The notes beneath the pieces are model-generated. The model was not told the origin of the DNA. It saw nothing but the letters and a program-made list of their open reading frames with translations, and searched no databases. Both the position numbers and the translations under genes were made by a program. A stretch of DNA of 64,000 nucleotides from Massilia putida. Its GTDB lineage: Bacteria > Pseudomonadota > Gammaproteobacteria > Burkholderiales > Burkholderiaceae_D. This document shows positions 49,408 through 62,714 of the stretch, in pieces. How positions within the stretch are numbered: position 1 is the stretch's first letter; each line of letters opens with the position of its first letter. The DNA lies in contig NZ_CP019038.1 of NCBI RefSeq assembly GCF_001941825.1, forward strand, positions 868,001 to 932,000. Reading direction: 5' to 3'.

Positions 49408-49707
49408 TCAGAAGCCGTCGACGGCGGCCGCGAAGTGGCTGACGACGGGCGCGCCGTCGAAGCAGTGCCCGACGAGACGGCGCCATTCCTGGAAATCGTC
49501 GCTCTCGCGGAAGTGGACCATGTGGTCCTCGACCGTCTCCCAGTCCACGAGCAGGCGATAGGCGCGCGGATTTTCCACGCCGCGTTGCAGGCGCATGCCC
49601 TGACAGCCGCGCGCCCGTCGGAACAGCGGGCCTGCCGCCCGCACGCCCGCTTCGAATTGTTCTTCCATGCCGGCCTTGACCAGGATTTCCGCGCTTTCCA
49701 CGACCAT
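49408..49707 (-). CDS. Antibiotic biosynthesis monooxygenase (ABM) domain protein
   Basis: 99 residues, one ferredoxin-like ABM domain: AEILVKAGMEEQFEAGVRAA, then GCQGMRLQRGVENPRAYRLL and WETVEDHMVHFRESDDFQEW. Homologues oxidise quinols or polycyclic aromatics without cofactors, or are oxygenase helpers. Last gene of the minus-strand set that includes the NodD-type regulator, esterase and amidohydrolase, starting 35 bases after the regulator stop. A role in oxidising a phenolic aglycone is an inference from that setting. The start at 49707 follows GGAAAC. Confidence 0.82.
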   Translation of the reverse strand: MVVESAEILVKAGMEEQFEAGVRAAGPLFRRARGCQGMRLQRGVENPRAYRLLVDWETVEDHMVHFRESDDFQEWRRLVGHCFDGAPVVSHFAAAVDGF

Positions 49708-49741
49708 CGTGTTTCCTTTCGTTAGAGTTCGACGTGGCCGA

Positions 49742-50731
49742 TTATGCCACCGACAGCCCGGTGACGCCGCGCCCCGTCTCGATCGAATTGAAACTGAACG
49801 GCGCCATCGGCAGCTCGGCATTCGTCGGCAGGCCGCGTGCGACCTCCAGCATGATCCCGCGCAGCCAGATATGGCAAGGATCGTTTTCCTGGAAGCGGTG
49901 CCATTGCAGGCATTCGGCCAGCGGCGGCAGATCATACGGCAGCGGCAGCACGCGGATCGGCAGGCGGCGCGCGCACGCGAGCGCGAGGCGCGTGTGCATC
50001 GTCGCGACGAGGTCCGTGCCGACGAGCGCCGTCGCCATGCTGTAGAAATCGCTGGTGATCACGCGGATGCGGCGCTTGACGTTCTGCGCCTGCAGCAGCA
50101 GTTCTTCCATCGTCGGCGAGCGCGGACGGCCTAGCATCGGCGCGATGTGCGACAGGCGTTCGTACGTGGCGGCGTCGAGGACGTCCCCCACGTGCGTGTT
50201 GCCTTCCCAGATCACGGCGCAGTAGTGGTCTTCGAACAGCGTGCGCTGCGGATGCTCGGGATCGAGGAAGTTGCGCGGGATGATCAGAAAATCGTTCTCG
50301 CCGCGGCGCAGCTTCTCCGCCGCGTCGTCCGCGAGGGGCACCAGTTCCAACGTCATATTGGGCGCGTCGCGCAGCACGCGCGCCACCACCTGGTTCAGGA
50401 ACACTTCGGTGGCGTAGTCCGACACCATGATCTTCATGCAGCGCGTCTCGCGCGCCGGGTCGAACGTCACGCGGATGCCGACCGTCGCATGCACGTGCAG
50501 GATCAGGTCGCGCACGGGGCCGACCAGCTGCTTGCCGAGGACCGTCAGCTCCATGTTGCGGCCGACCGCAGCGAGCAGGTCGTCCTCGAAGAATTCGCGC
50601 AGGCGCGCCAGCATGCCGCTCATGGCGGACTGGCTGACGTTCACGCGCGCCGCCGCGCGGGTGATGTTCTGTTCCTCCAGCAGCGCGTCGAGCGCCAGCA
50701 GCAGGTTCAGGTCCAGGCGGTTGAATCGCAT
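49742..50731 (-). CDS. NodD-type LysR transcriptional regulator
   Basis: 329 residues. The start MRFNRLDLNLLLALDALLEE and helix-turn-helix ITRAAARVNVSQSAMSGMLA follow the NodD pattern. The effector domain does as well: IMVSDYATEVFLNQVV, LELVPLADDAAEKLRRGEND, FLIIPRNFL, EECLQW-like AECLQWHRFQENDPCHIWLR. NodD-clade proteins respond to flavonoids or other aromatics. It lies among esterase, amidohydrolase, beta-glucosidase and rhamnosidase genes. The shared CGATA-N5-TATCR repeats upstream of the amidohydrolase and in the MFS/receptor divergon are plausible target sites. Confidence 0.88.
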   Translation of the reverse strand: MRFNRLDLNLLLALDALLEEQNITRAAARVNVSQSAMSGMLARLREFFEDDLLAAVGRNMELTVLGKQLVGPVRDLILHVHATVGIRVTFDPARETRCMKIMVSDYATEVFLNQVVARVLRDAPNMTLELVPLADDAAEKLRRGENDFLIIPRNFLDPEHPQRTLFEDHYCAVIWEGNTHVGDVLDAATYERLSHIAPMLGRPRSPTMEELLLQAQNVKRRIRVITSDFYSMATALVGTDLVATMHTRLALACARRLPIRVLPLPYDLPPLAECLQWHRFQENDPCHIWLRGIMLEVARGLPTNAELPMAPFSFNSIETGRGVTGLSVA

Positions 50732-61400: not shown

Positions 61401-61821
61401 CGGTGCCATCGCGCACGGCGCGCCGGGGTCCCTGGCCGCGAGCGGCGACCCGCAGGTCCGGTATTTTTCGGGGATCTCCGTGTACCGGACGACGTTCACG
61501 CTGCCGTCCGGCGTCAAGCCCGGCGCGCCGCTCAAGCTGGATCTCGGCCAGGTCGGCGACGTGGCCGACGTCATCGTCAACGGCAAGCCGGCCGGTATCG
61601 CGTGGAAGCCGCCGTATGCCGTCGACGTGGACGCCCTCGTCGTCGCCGGCACGAACACGGTGGAGGTCAGGGTCGCCAACCTGTGGGTGAACCGCCTGAT
61701 CGGCGACGCGCAACCGGGCGCCGCCAAGGTCGCGTTCACGGCCGCGCCCACGTACAAGGCGGACGCGCCGCTGCGGCCGTCCGGCCTGATCGGCCCCGTC
61801 ACGCTCGAGGTGCCCCGGTGA
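58480..61821 (+). CDS. GH106-type alpha-L-rhamnosidase
   Basis: 1113 residues. After a signal peptide (ends APAWAG, ~28) the body begins GFAQPPQSARPRVWWHWLNG, followed by NITKEGIDKDIAWMARSGLG and FGIAASPGWSETGGPWVRPE, which are the hallmark opening blocks of GH106. Further blocks include TDSIEVGSSNWTPRLLEQFQ, a VYGEALESARVTLGDD acid region and a C-terminal jelly roll (VYRTTFTLPSGVKPG, WVNRLIGDAQPG). GH106 enzymes remove rhamnose from pectin side chains or flavonoid glycosides. It starts 2 bases after the receptor stop. An alternative start at 58501 would shorten the leader. Confidence 0.88.
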   Translation: MAAHIHAMRRIALAAALACLSAPAWAGDPIASGFAQPPQSARPRVWWHWLNGNITKEGIDKDIAWMARSGLGGLQNFDAEMMTPQLVPKRLPYMSPGWADAFRFAAQQAERNGLEFGIAASPGWSETGGPWVRPEDGMKKVVWSETTVEGGQAVTLPAVPRTTGPFQDLFVQPDIMGQRPGRDKLARTGGEIAVYAYPATRAALPAPAVHAGAQSLDAYRLATLGEDAVADLAAPAADRPVVITLDYPTPQTIRSATIFAPGAASMFDGAGYAAALEASDDATMWRKVVDLPLALVPASAGFAPVTAAHFRVVVSARPAAPNPQFMPVPGADTGAFGSIGQAKELRLATLLLSAEPKVNQFETKAGFATADDYYALDAGLDPREPGVDPDAIVDLTDKLRVDGTLAWTPPAGTWKIVRLGWSLTGTENHPATPEATGLEVDKYDGKAVRTYLETYLAKYEQAAGRDLIGAHGVRALVTDSIEVGSSNWTPRLLEQFQRLRGYDARPWLPALTGVVIGNRARTDAFLYDYRRTLADLLASEHYGTVATVAREHGLKVYGEALESARVTLGDDMAMRSHANVPMAAMWTYRPEFGPNPMAIADMRGAASVAHVYGQNLVAAESLTSAMAPWAFAPADLRPMIDMEFASGVNLPVIHTSVHQPLDDDKKPGLSLAIFGQYFNRNETWAGMARPWVDYMARSAYLLQQGRFYADVAYFYGEEAPLVALYKHGQPADAPRRYAYDFVNADAVLHRLSVKDGDLVAAGGARYRVLYLGGSSSRMTLATLRRVRALAADGATIVGPAPVAAPGLADDPAAFAALVRTMWSGAPVTRIGKGRVIAGRDVEAALSRVGQAPDFSHAAAGDAPLPFVHRRLADGDLYFVANRSAQPMHTEARFNVRGKAAEFWHADTGRAEPASYRTDQDGTVVPLALGANESVFVVFRRPATARAVTVTPTTWSPVATLAGNWTIRFDGLGAPGAIAHGAPGSLAASGDPQVRYFSGISVYRTTFTLPSGVKPGAPLKLDLGQVGDVADVIVNGKPAGIAWKPPYAVDVDALVVAGTNTVEVRVANLWVNRLIGDAQPGAAKVAFTAAPTYKADAPLRPSGLIGPVTLEVPR

Positions 61822-62714
61822 GGCGGCGCCACCTGCTGGGCTGTCTCGCGGCGCTGCCCCTGGCGCATGCGCCGGGCCGCCCTGCCGGCATCGTCCAGCG
61901 CCCGCTGGCCCGCGTGATCGTTGACAACGATTTCGCGGGCGATCCGGACGGCCTCGTCGCGCTGGCGCACCAATTGCTGGCACCGACGACGCGCACCGTG
62001 CTCGTCACGACGTCCCCGCTCGACGCGAAGCTGGCGGCGCTGGCCGGCTTGGACGCCGGCCGCACGGCGGCTGCCGGCGCGCGCCTTGCCGGCGAATTGC
62101 TGCGCTTCGTGCGGCCGGCCGCACGGCCGCCCATCGTCGCGGGCGACGACGCGGGCGCGGCGCGGGCGATTGTCGCGGAAGCCCTGCGCGACGACCCGCT
62201 ACCCCTCGTCCTGACGTGCGGCGGGCCCTTGACGAACGTCGCCGCCGCGCTGCGCCTGCGGCCCGACATCGCGACGCGCATGCGGCTCGTGTGGATCGGC
62301 GGGTCGGCGGCCGACGATGCGGGTACCGAGTACAACCTCATGACCGACCTCGCGGCGGCCCGCTACGTGTTCGAGGACACGCGCATCCCCATCCTGCAGA
62401 TTCCAGTCGAAGAATACCGGCGCTTCCAGGTCTCCGTCGCGGAGCTGGACGCCGGCTTCCGAGCCGCGTCGCCGCTCGCGCGCTGGCTCTACGACCGGTA
62501 CCGCCACCTGCCGCCGTTCGTGCAGCCGGGCGGCACGCTGACGTTCGGCGACAGCCCCCTCGTCACCGCAACGGCATTCGACCCGGCGGCGACGCCCTTC
62601 ACGGTGCGCCGCGTCAAGGAGCGCGAGGTCCGCATGGCGCATTCGCTCGATCCGCGCCTGAACTACGCGGACCTCGTCGCGCTGCTGCGCCTGGATCAGA
62701 AGGCGCCGACGTAG
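61818..62714 (+). CDS. Exported nucleoside-hydrolase-family protein
   Basis: 298 residues. GTG start at 61818 overlaps the GH106 stop by 4 bases (GTGA); longer readings from 61602 run inside GH106. The leader [18 protein letters not shown] is a short signal with a twin-arginine look. The calcium-binding motif [20 protein letters not shown] (usual form DTDxGxDDA/G) is altered but keeps the key Asp residues. The ligand part has [15 protein letters not shown] and [11 protein letters not shown]. The family cleaves N-ribosides in the cytoplasm; an exported member beside a rhamnosidase suggests another glycosidic substrate. Confidence 0.8.

Follow-up and report, generated by a model that had tools for sequence, protein, structure and literature searches.

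The window analyzed here, a 64,000-nucleotide stretch of the Massilia putida genome (GCF_001941825.1, NZ_CP019038.1; C3:868001-932000 of a 7.52 Mb genome in three contigs), contains a cluster of glycosidase, uptake and regulatory genes between pcaR-pcaIJF and pobA (Table 1). Two operons diverge from 55,908-56,167. The plus-strand operon encodes a TonB-dependent outer-membrane receptor (TBDT), a GH106 alpha-L-rhamnosidase and a nucleoside-hydrolase-like protein (NH). The minus-strand operon encodes an MFS carrier, a GH1 beta-glycosidase, a metal-dependent amidohydrolase (AHY), an esterase-family hydrolase (EST), a LysR regulator and an ABM-domain protein (ABM), with a deletion scar between MFS and GH1. 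Genes are tightly spaced within both strand runs. Identities were assigned by Pfam profile searches of the window's open reading frames (ORFs) with family cut-offs applied; neither MFS nor NH had an NCBIfam match at E 1e-8. The genes named in an earlier reading of this DNA (the initial annotation) were all recovered where it had placed them, above their Pfam cut-offs and with the strands and spacing it described. Its placement of the regulator had to be corrected: LysR sits within the minus-strand run and is not divergent from it.

Table 1. Features of the cluster and its flanks (positions in the window).
Feature	Position	Strand	Basis or remark
Flank: pcaFJI (-), IclR-type pcaR (+)	45918..49399	.	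pcaF over NCBIfam cut-off; pcaJ, pcaI and pcaR named from reading frames
ABM-domain protein	49408..49707	-	Last gene of minus run; Pfam ABM 45.9 bits, cut-off 23.1 (scanned 49408-49710)
LysR regulator	49742..50731	-	Pfam HTH_1 and LysR_substrate
Alpha/beta-hydrolase, esterase family (EST)	50825..51721	-	Abhydrolase_3, 77.9 bits
Metal-dependent amidohydrolase (AHY)	51731..52972	-	Pfam Amidohydro_1 over cut-off
Candidate operator O2, 5' of AHY	53031..53061	-	Dyad pattern
GH1 beta-glycosidase, Tat-like leader	53067..54416	-	Pfam 194.7 bits, cut-off 22.6
Deletion scar: remnants of HbpS 5', HbpS 3'/AMH2 5', FMO 3'	54419..54745	-	blastn against L158; M. terrae L038
Scar block 1	54760-54662	-	78%; MFS end/HbpS start, begins 14 bp inside MFS
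Scar block 2	54675-54537	-	84%; HbpS end and AMH2 start
Scar block 3	54565-54419	-	72%; FMO end, stops beside GH1
MFS carrier	54747..55907	-	First gene of minus run; MFS_1 50.1 bits, cut-off 33.4; ORF to 55955, likely start 55907
Candidate operator O3, 5' of MFS	55961..55987	-	Dyad pattern
Candidate operator O1, 5' of TBDT	56032..56062	+	Dyad pattern, then conserved TATACT
TonB-dependent outer-membrane receptor (TBDT)	56168..58477	+	Pfam Plug and barrel over cut-off
GH106 alpha-L-rhamnosidase	58480..61821	+	Start 58480 or 58498; Pfam 1003.5 bits, cut-off 29; scanned from 58483
Nucleoside-hydrolase-like protein (NH), apparently exported	61818..62714	+	IU_nuc_hydro 54.8 bits, cut-off 34.2; scanned from 61800
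Flank: pobA, 4-hydroxybenzoate 3-monooxygenase	62696..63862	-	NF006091 625.1 bits, cut-off 351; TIGR02360 534.6, under 538.7

We find that a shared and specific candidate operator stands at each promoter of the cluster, as expected of a LysR-controlled regulon. The pattern CGATAGNNNGTATC-N5-ANANGGCTTTGG occurs 5' of TBDT and 5' of AHY, and with up to three mismatches allowed these were its only two matches genome-wide (reversed control, 0 matches in the whole genome). A third site, 5' of MFS, has the same dyad. The core GATA-N5-TATC is kept at all three sites in 11/11 aligned loci, as is the TATACT that follows the site 5' of TBDT. In the ten cluster-bearing genomes described below, GATA-N5-TATC-N9-GNCTT gave 31 matches, 30 of them in the cluster (reversed control, two); the single match elsewhere lies in the window genome (G000:C3:3971562-3971588). 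Within the window, GATA-N5-TATC occurs four times, once outside the cluster (41122), against 0.13 expected from base composition. CGATAGNNNGTATC alone, with one mismatch or fewer, has three matches in the window, but this count was equaled in 3/100 shuffles, so we rely on the genome-wide and ten-genome counts. The LysR of the cluster would bind the GATA-N5-TATC sites at all three promoters; it is 85-97% identical in six aligned orthologues. Two extra operators in genome G266 (L163:16521-20000) lie 5' of a GH2-family gene adjoining LysR, which suggests that the regulon acquires further glycosidases, and Massilia niastensis (G256) has one extra operator 5' of a second GH1.

The initial annotation placed the regulator in the NodD clade. 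Its best solved matches are 9x6w and 9iib, followed by DntR, and its effector domain is 35% identical to 9iib (NodD-like) versus 25% to DntR. Kinship to NodD is plausible on these values rather than proven; all seven regulator equivalogs listed by NCBIfam fell under their cut-offs. An AlphaFold model of LysR (mean pLDDT 43.4) was too poor for a fold search.

The cluster is conserved in a minority of relatives, which carry the names Massilia and Telluria. GH1 was present at 79% identity or more in 10/62 same-genus genomes, the window genome counted, and the next matches fell to 48%. The same core was also found in Pseudoduganella umbonata. GH106 lies in the locus in nine of the ten cluster-bearing genomes. 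NH accompanies the rhamnosidase and receptor in 8/10; it was not seen in M. niastensis, and the stretch from Telluria mixta (G255) ended too early. The order of NH and GH106 varies among genomes, and in Massilia sp. 9I and P. umbonata GH106 stands between GH1 and AHY, within the GH1 operon. LysR-ABM abuts pcaR in five genomes including the window's, an ABM orthologue (93-94% identical) adjoins LysR in four other genomes, and AHY is 93% identical in M. terrae. We also observed paralogous sets with GH106 (47%), GH1 (45%), TBDT and a LysR of the L086 type (L086 being a locus on the C2 replicon of the window genome) at L167, L168 and L169 (G266, G255 and G260); L167 additionally holds NH (50%), and a single GATA-N5-TATC separates its GH106 from TBDT. 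This gene grammar thus recurs, and the three clusters could possibly form a sister regulon for other glycosides.

Most relatives carry a ring-cleavage module that the window cluster lacks. In 8/10 cluster-bearing genomes, HbpS-AMH2-VOC-FAH-FMO lies between MFS and GH1. The FMO of the M. terrae module passes NF004829, the MhpA-type 3-(3-hydroxyphenyl)propionate hydroxylase subfamily (518.1 bits, cut-off 390); VOC resembles extradiol dioxygenases while falling under every NCBIfam equivalog cut-off, and AMH2 is nearest ACMSD. M. niastensis has two copies of the cluster, one with a stop in VOC (a copy in which gene calling broke MFS in two and overlooked AMH2 and LysR). By blastn, positions 54760-54419 of the window are collinear with the T. 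mixta locus L158, in three blocks overlapping by 29 bp or less (Table 1). We therefore ruled out a gene at 54419-54745. The three in-order blocks point to two internal deletions, of ~0.29 and ~4.15 kb, by which, judging from this alignment, the ring-cleavage genes were deleted from the cluster in the window genome.

However, the window genome keeps two complete stand-alone modules, one at ~1.76 Mb on C3 and one on the 457 kb replicon C2, each accompanied by a different LysR and by genes for an MFS protein and a porin-like protein. In G266, too, MFS and GH1 have no module between them, and a single stand-alone copy lies ~4 kb away from the cluster; a second loss of the module, considered for this genome, was dropped because the module stands alone nearby. 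The other eight cluster-bearing genomes had no VOC match above 104 bits outside the cluster. The split between in-cluster and stand-alone modules is thus reciprocal in 10/10 genomes (exact probability 1/45, uncorrected for shared ancestry). No GATA-N5-TATC site was found in the fetched stretches around the stand-alone modules, so ring cleavage is probably under another regulator here. Presumably, the in-cluster module has been replaced in the window genome by the two stand-alone copies under another LysR. A search of plasmids for the stand-alone module returned one record, from Roseomonas, covering 11% of the query. Besides its module, C2 (L037, L081 and L086) holds several aromatic clusters, with paralogues of the amidohydrolase (55%) and ABM (70%) and an MFS (52%) accompanied by a LysR paralogue (42%); a further set there, of flavin hydroxylase, VOC and, by eye, Rieske genes, looks more like the fde system discussed below.

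A homologous set occurs in another bacterial class. In a tblastn search of plasmids with AHY, nine of the best 10 of 31 records were sphingomonads (53-57% identity). At least six of these nine plasmids, a lower bound from the best 20 of 32 records, carry GH106 at 54-58% within ~11 kb of AHY (in RAC03 across the record start). We annotated seven of the nine, leaving out THN1 and ES2-1. AHY-FMO-HbpS-VOC-FAH was present in all seven, the AHY counterpart (55-58%) adjoining the other four genes, and an EST counterpart (36-40%) was present on six. The full nine-gene set, with TBDT, EST, GH1 and GH106, forms a single co-directional run on five of the seven (PP1Y, TomTYG64, TomTYG65, V4 and N. resinovorum). 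The RAC03 set is cut by the record start after TBDT, and the N. aromaticivorans pNL2 stretch has EST with no match to GH106 or GH1. In PP1Y, a pobA (48%) follows GH1. A search for the gene set in related genomes, as the initial annotation recommended, has thus recovered it in 10/62 genus genomes, in P. umbonata and, reordered and partly different, on sphingomonad plasmids, and because of this recurrence we take the grouping to exceed chance. The view that these genes form one regulated system is borne out by the cluster-specific operator, the conserved synteny and the homologous set in another class.

The glycosidases point to the type of substrate. GH106 matches its family profile over the full length (2-742/743). 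It aligns at 1273.8 bits to 6q2f, which we take to be RHA-P of Novosphingobium sp. PP1Y, versus 387.1 bits to 5mqm. The alignment of the PP1Y plasmid GH106 ends at residue 1138, as in 6q2f, if the MPRL codon is the start. The more distant structure, 5MQM, is BT_0986 (BT0986), according to the available text of PMC6828813, and the PP1Y GH106 is described as active on flavonoid glycosides in the accessible part of PMC10653915. In GH1, the glutamates of the NEP and TENG motifs are invariant in nine aligned rows. GH1 begins RRRTLLG, and in 8/9 rows the N-terminus has twin arginines and then LLG or ILG, the ninth having been clipped by the gene caller; GH1 is accordingly a predicted Tat-exported protein. 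Against the beta-glucosidase equivalog TIGR03356 it scored 211.2 bits, under the cut-off of 478.5, which makes a beta-glucosidase likely and not certain.

A second GH106, 28% identical, lies ~75 kb away (L004; G000:C3:838001-858000) beside L-rhamnose genes, among which the isomerase, aldolase-dehydrogenase, mutarotase and RhaS exceed NCBIfam cut-offs. Genes at L004 also resemble, by eye, a GH105 hydrolase and acetylesterases, and this is perhaps a rhamnogalacturonan I (RG-I) cluster. Action on pectin only, which the initial annotation had set against its own proposal, is less likely for the GH106 of the window cluster, given that a separate protein adjoins the rhamnose and RG-I-like genes; we judge a pectin or RG-I role for it unlikely. 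The proposed phenolic rhamnoglucoside substrate gains indirect support from the proximity of GH106 to 6q2f, the ring-cleavage module of the relatives and the adjoining pob and pca genes. The substrate would be a rhamnoglucoside of an aromatic compound, with a second ring that could give rise to 4-hydroxybenzoate; a flavonoid is our best guess. Note that naringenin raised pcaJIF and catCD expression three- to sevenfold in Herbaspirillum seropedicae, as described in the available part of PMC4440368.

We consider it likely that the cluster is a catabolon under LysR control and acts on aromatic rhamnosyl-glucosides, flavonoid ones being the most likely. The glycoside would cross the outer membrane through the TonB receptor, and rhamnose would be cleaved off by exported GH106 and glucose by Tat-exported GH1. 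MFS may then move the aglycone or a fragment inwards, where the esterase and amidohydrolase could open ester, lactone or C-ring bonds. An MhpA-type hydroxylase, an extradiol dioxygenase, an ACMSD-like decarboxylase and an FAH enzyme would break one ring, supplied in the window genome by the two stand-alone modules under another LysR, and pobA-pca would break the 4-hydroxyphenyl ring. LysR, on binding before TBDT, MFS and the amidohydrolase, would coordinate the scheme. The gene set, its conservation, the specificity of the operator, the deletion and the stand-alone copies are seen in the sequence itself; we infer the substrate, the inducer, binding by LysR, the order of the reactions and the location of the proteins, as we do the roles of EST, AHY, NH and ABM and the direction of MFS transport. 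More tentatively, and with some doubt, we suggest a complete flavonoid-glycoside catabolon common to Oxalobacteraceae chromosomes and sphingomonad megaplasmids, with a meta-cleavage distinct from fde and ifc (an MhpA-type hydroxylase, HbpS, an extradiol dioxygenase and FAH, the C-ring being opened by amidohydrolase and esterase), and with exchangeable sugar-stripping and ring-breaking modules, the latter re-supplied under a different LysR if lost.

Several observations weigh against this interpretation. The operator patterns were derived from the sites themselves. GH106 was not seen in the stretches fetched around the two M. niastensis copies, and pobA adjoins the cluster in only 3/10 genomes (the window's, M. 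phosphatilytica and 9I; the G255 stretch was too short). No gene of the sphingomonad sets has its best match in the window LysR, MFS, NH or ABM or in AMH2. The transporter of the stand-alone module at L080 is most like aromatic-acid/H+ symporters, below the family cut-off, which would fit a simple aromatic acid as the common intermediate. Furthermore, pairwise ratios of nonsynonymous to synonymous substitution (dN/dS; reference L158, or L088 for GH106, NH and pobA) are 0.21-0.23 for GH106, NH, TBDT and MFS, more than twice the 0.09-0.10 of the flanking pcaI, pcaF and part of pobA; LysR is at 0.06, and GH1, ABM, AHY and EST are at 0.09-0.15. The remaining cluster could be a non-functional rump decaying since the deletion, having lost ~4.4 kb in two deletions inside the operon, and nonsynonymous/synonymous counts in the window lineage exceed those of T. 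mixta for GH1 (7/47 versus 3/40) and AHY (7/39 versus 2/18). However, the counts are lower for LysR (1/38 versus 1/15), EST (7/41 versus 5/22), MFS (14/40 versus 9/21) and TBDT (14/60 versus 32/67), with no consistent rise in the window lineage (small numbers; the outgroup, L091, was not tree-checked). The other cluster genes have open reading frames without breaks, the operators are kept and two stand-alone modules remain, and we regard decay as unlikely. Unbroken frames with dN/dS of 0.06-0.23 across the remaining genes speak for the proposed catabolon.

The substrate may also differ under the same architecture. A phenylpropanoid, phenylethanoid or coumarin rhamnoglucoside, from which EST and AHY free a phenolic acid for the module, is possible although doubtful, and its mechanics are compatible with those proposed above. 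The FMO falls in the 3-(3-hydroxyphenyl)propionate hydroxylase subfamily, a stand-alone module has the aromatic-acid transporter-like gene, the cluster holds an esterase, and hcdABC is needed to degrade 3-(2,4-dihydroxyphenyl)propionate (PMC6222606, available part). The nearest relative of GH106, in contrast, is probably a rhamnosidase reported active on flavonoid glycosides. A system for saponins or other terpenoid rhamnosides is very unlikely: SpGH106-1 of a tomato-root Sphingobium has putative rhamnosidase activity on steroidal saponins (PMC10653915, accessible part), and TomTYG64 has a 3-oxosteroid 1-dehydrogenase ~1 kb past its GH106, whereas aromatic ring-cleavage-type genes are present in 8/10 genus clusters and 7/7 annotated plasmids, and pca and pob genes flank the window cluster. 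Two divergent operons and the variable order of NH and GH106 would also fit an aromatic and a rhamnoside system that merely abut on opposite strands. This is the least probable of the alternatives, given the shared cluster-specific operator, the two species that have GH106 within the GH1 operon and the single co-directional run on five sphingomonad plasmids.

In plants, many flavonoids occur as glycosides. As a catabolon for aromatic rhamnosyl-glucosides, the cluster would offer a candidate sensor of phenolic glycosides and an example from nature of one pathway divided between two regulons, and cultured Massilia, Telluria, Novosphingobium and Sphingobium would allow direct tests of its inducer, regulator binding and pathway steps. 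We found no literature description of it, in a search that reached few subscription journals, and none, as one regulon, of the PP1Y cluster, in which the plasmid GH106 stands beside homologues of AHY-FMO-HbpS-VOC-FAH-TBDT-EST-GH1-pobA. Relative to NodD, a plausible relative by the effector-domain identity to 9iib given above, the context here is catabolic and the sites are GATA-N5-TATC. The hcdABC genes of Pseudomonas mandelii 7HK4 likewise combine a flavin hydroxylase, an extradiol dioxygenase and a putative hydrolase, but the available part of that description does not mention glycosidases (PMC6222606). In the fde system of H. seropedicae, the regulator FdeR, a LysR protein that a cited title calls NodD-like, governs hydroxylation and dioxygenation of the flavonoid A-ring, with products passing to protocatechuate and pca (PMC10799723 and PMC11303751, in the parts available). 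Gene order had first suggested that the module is fdeABCDE. We dropped this idea on the description of FdeD as a Rieske carrier (PMC8552027, available text); none of the labelled cluster genes, whether here or in relatives, encodes a Rieske protein, Pfam shows none in the M. terrae module, and the combination of FdeE, FdeC and FdeD was not found, FMO being MhpA-type. A Herbaspirillum FMO (P0216, 64%) among the matches listed is evidence only that a relative exists in the genus. Unlike fde as described, the module here has HbpS, ACMSD-like and FAH genes and is joined by glycosidases and a TonB receptor. The ifc system of Variovorax, like the module, pairs a flavin hydroxylase with a glyoxalase-type dioxygenase in an A-ring route, but by the accessible description IfcA acts on isoflavone aglycones, not glycosides, and ifc includes cupins (PMC11069340). 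Both fde and ifc are thus described, in the texts available, on aglycones, whereas the cluster reported here would place outer-membrane uptake, removal of rhamnose and glucose and ring cleavage together under a single regulator that has a defined operator.

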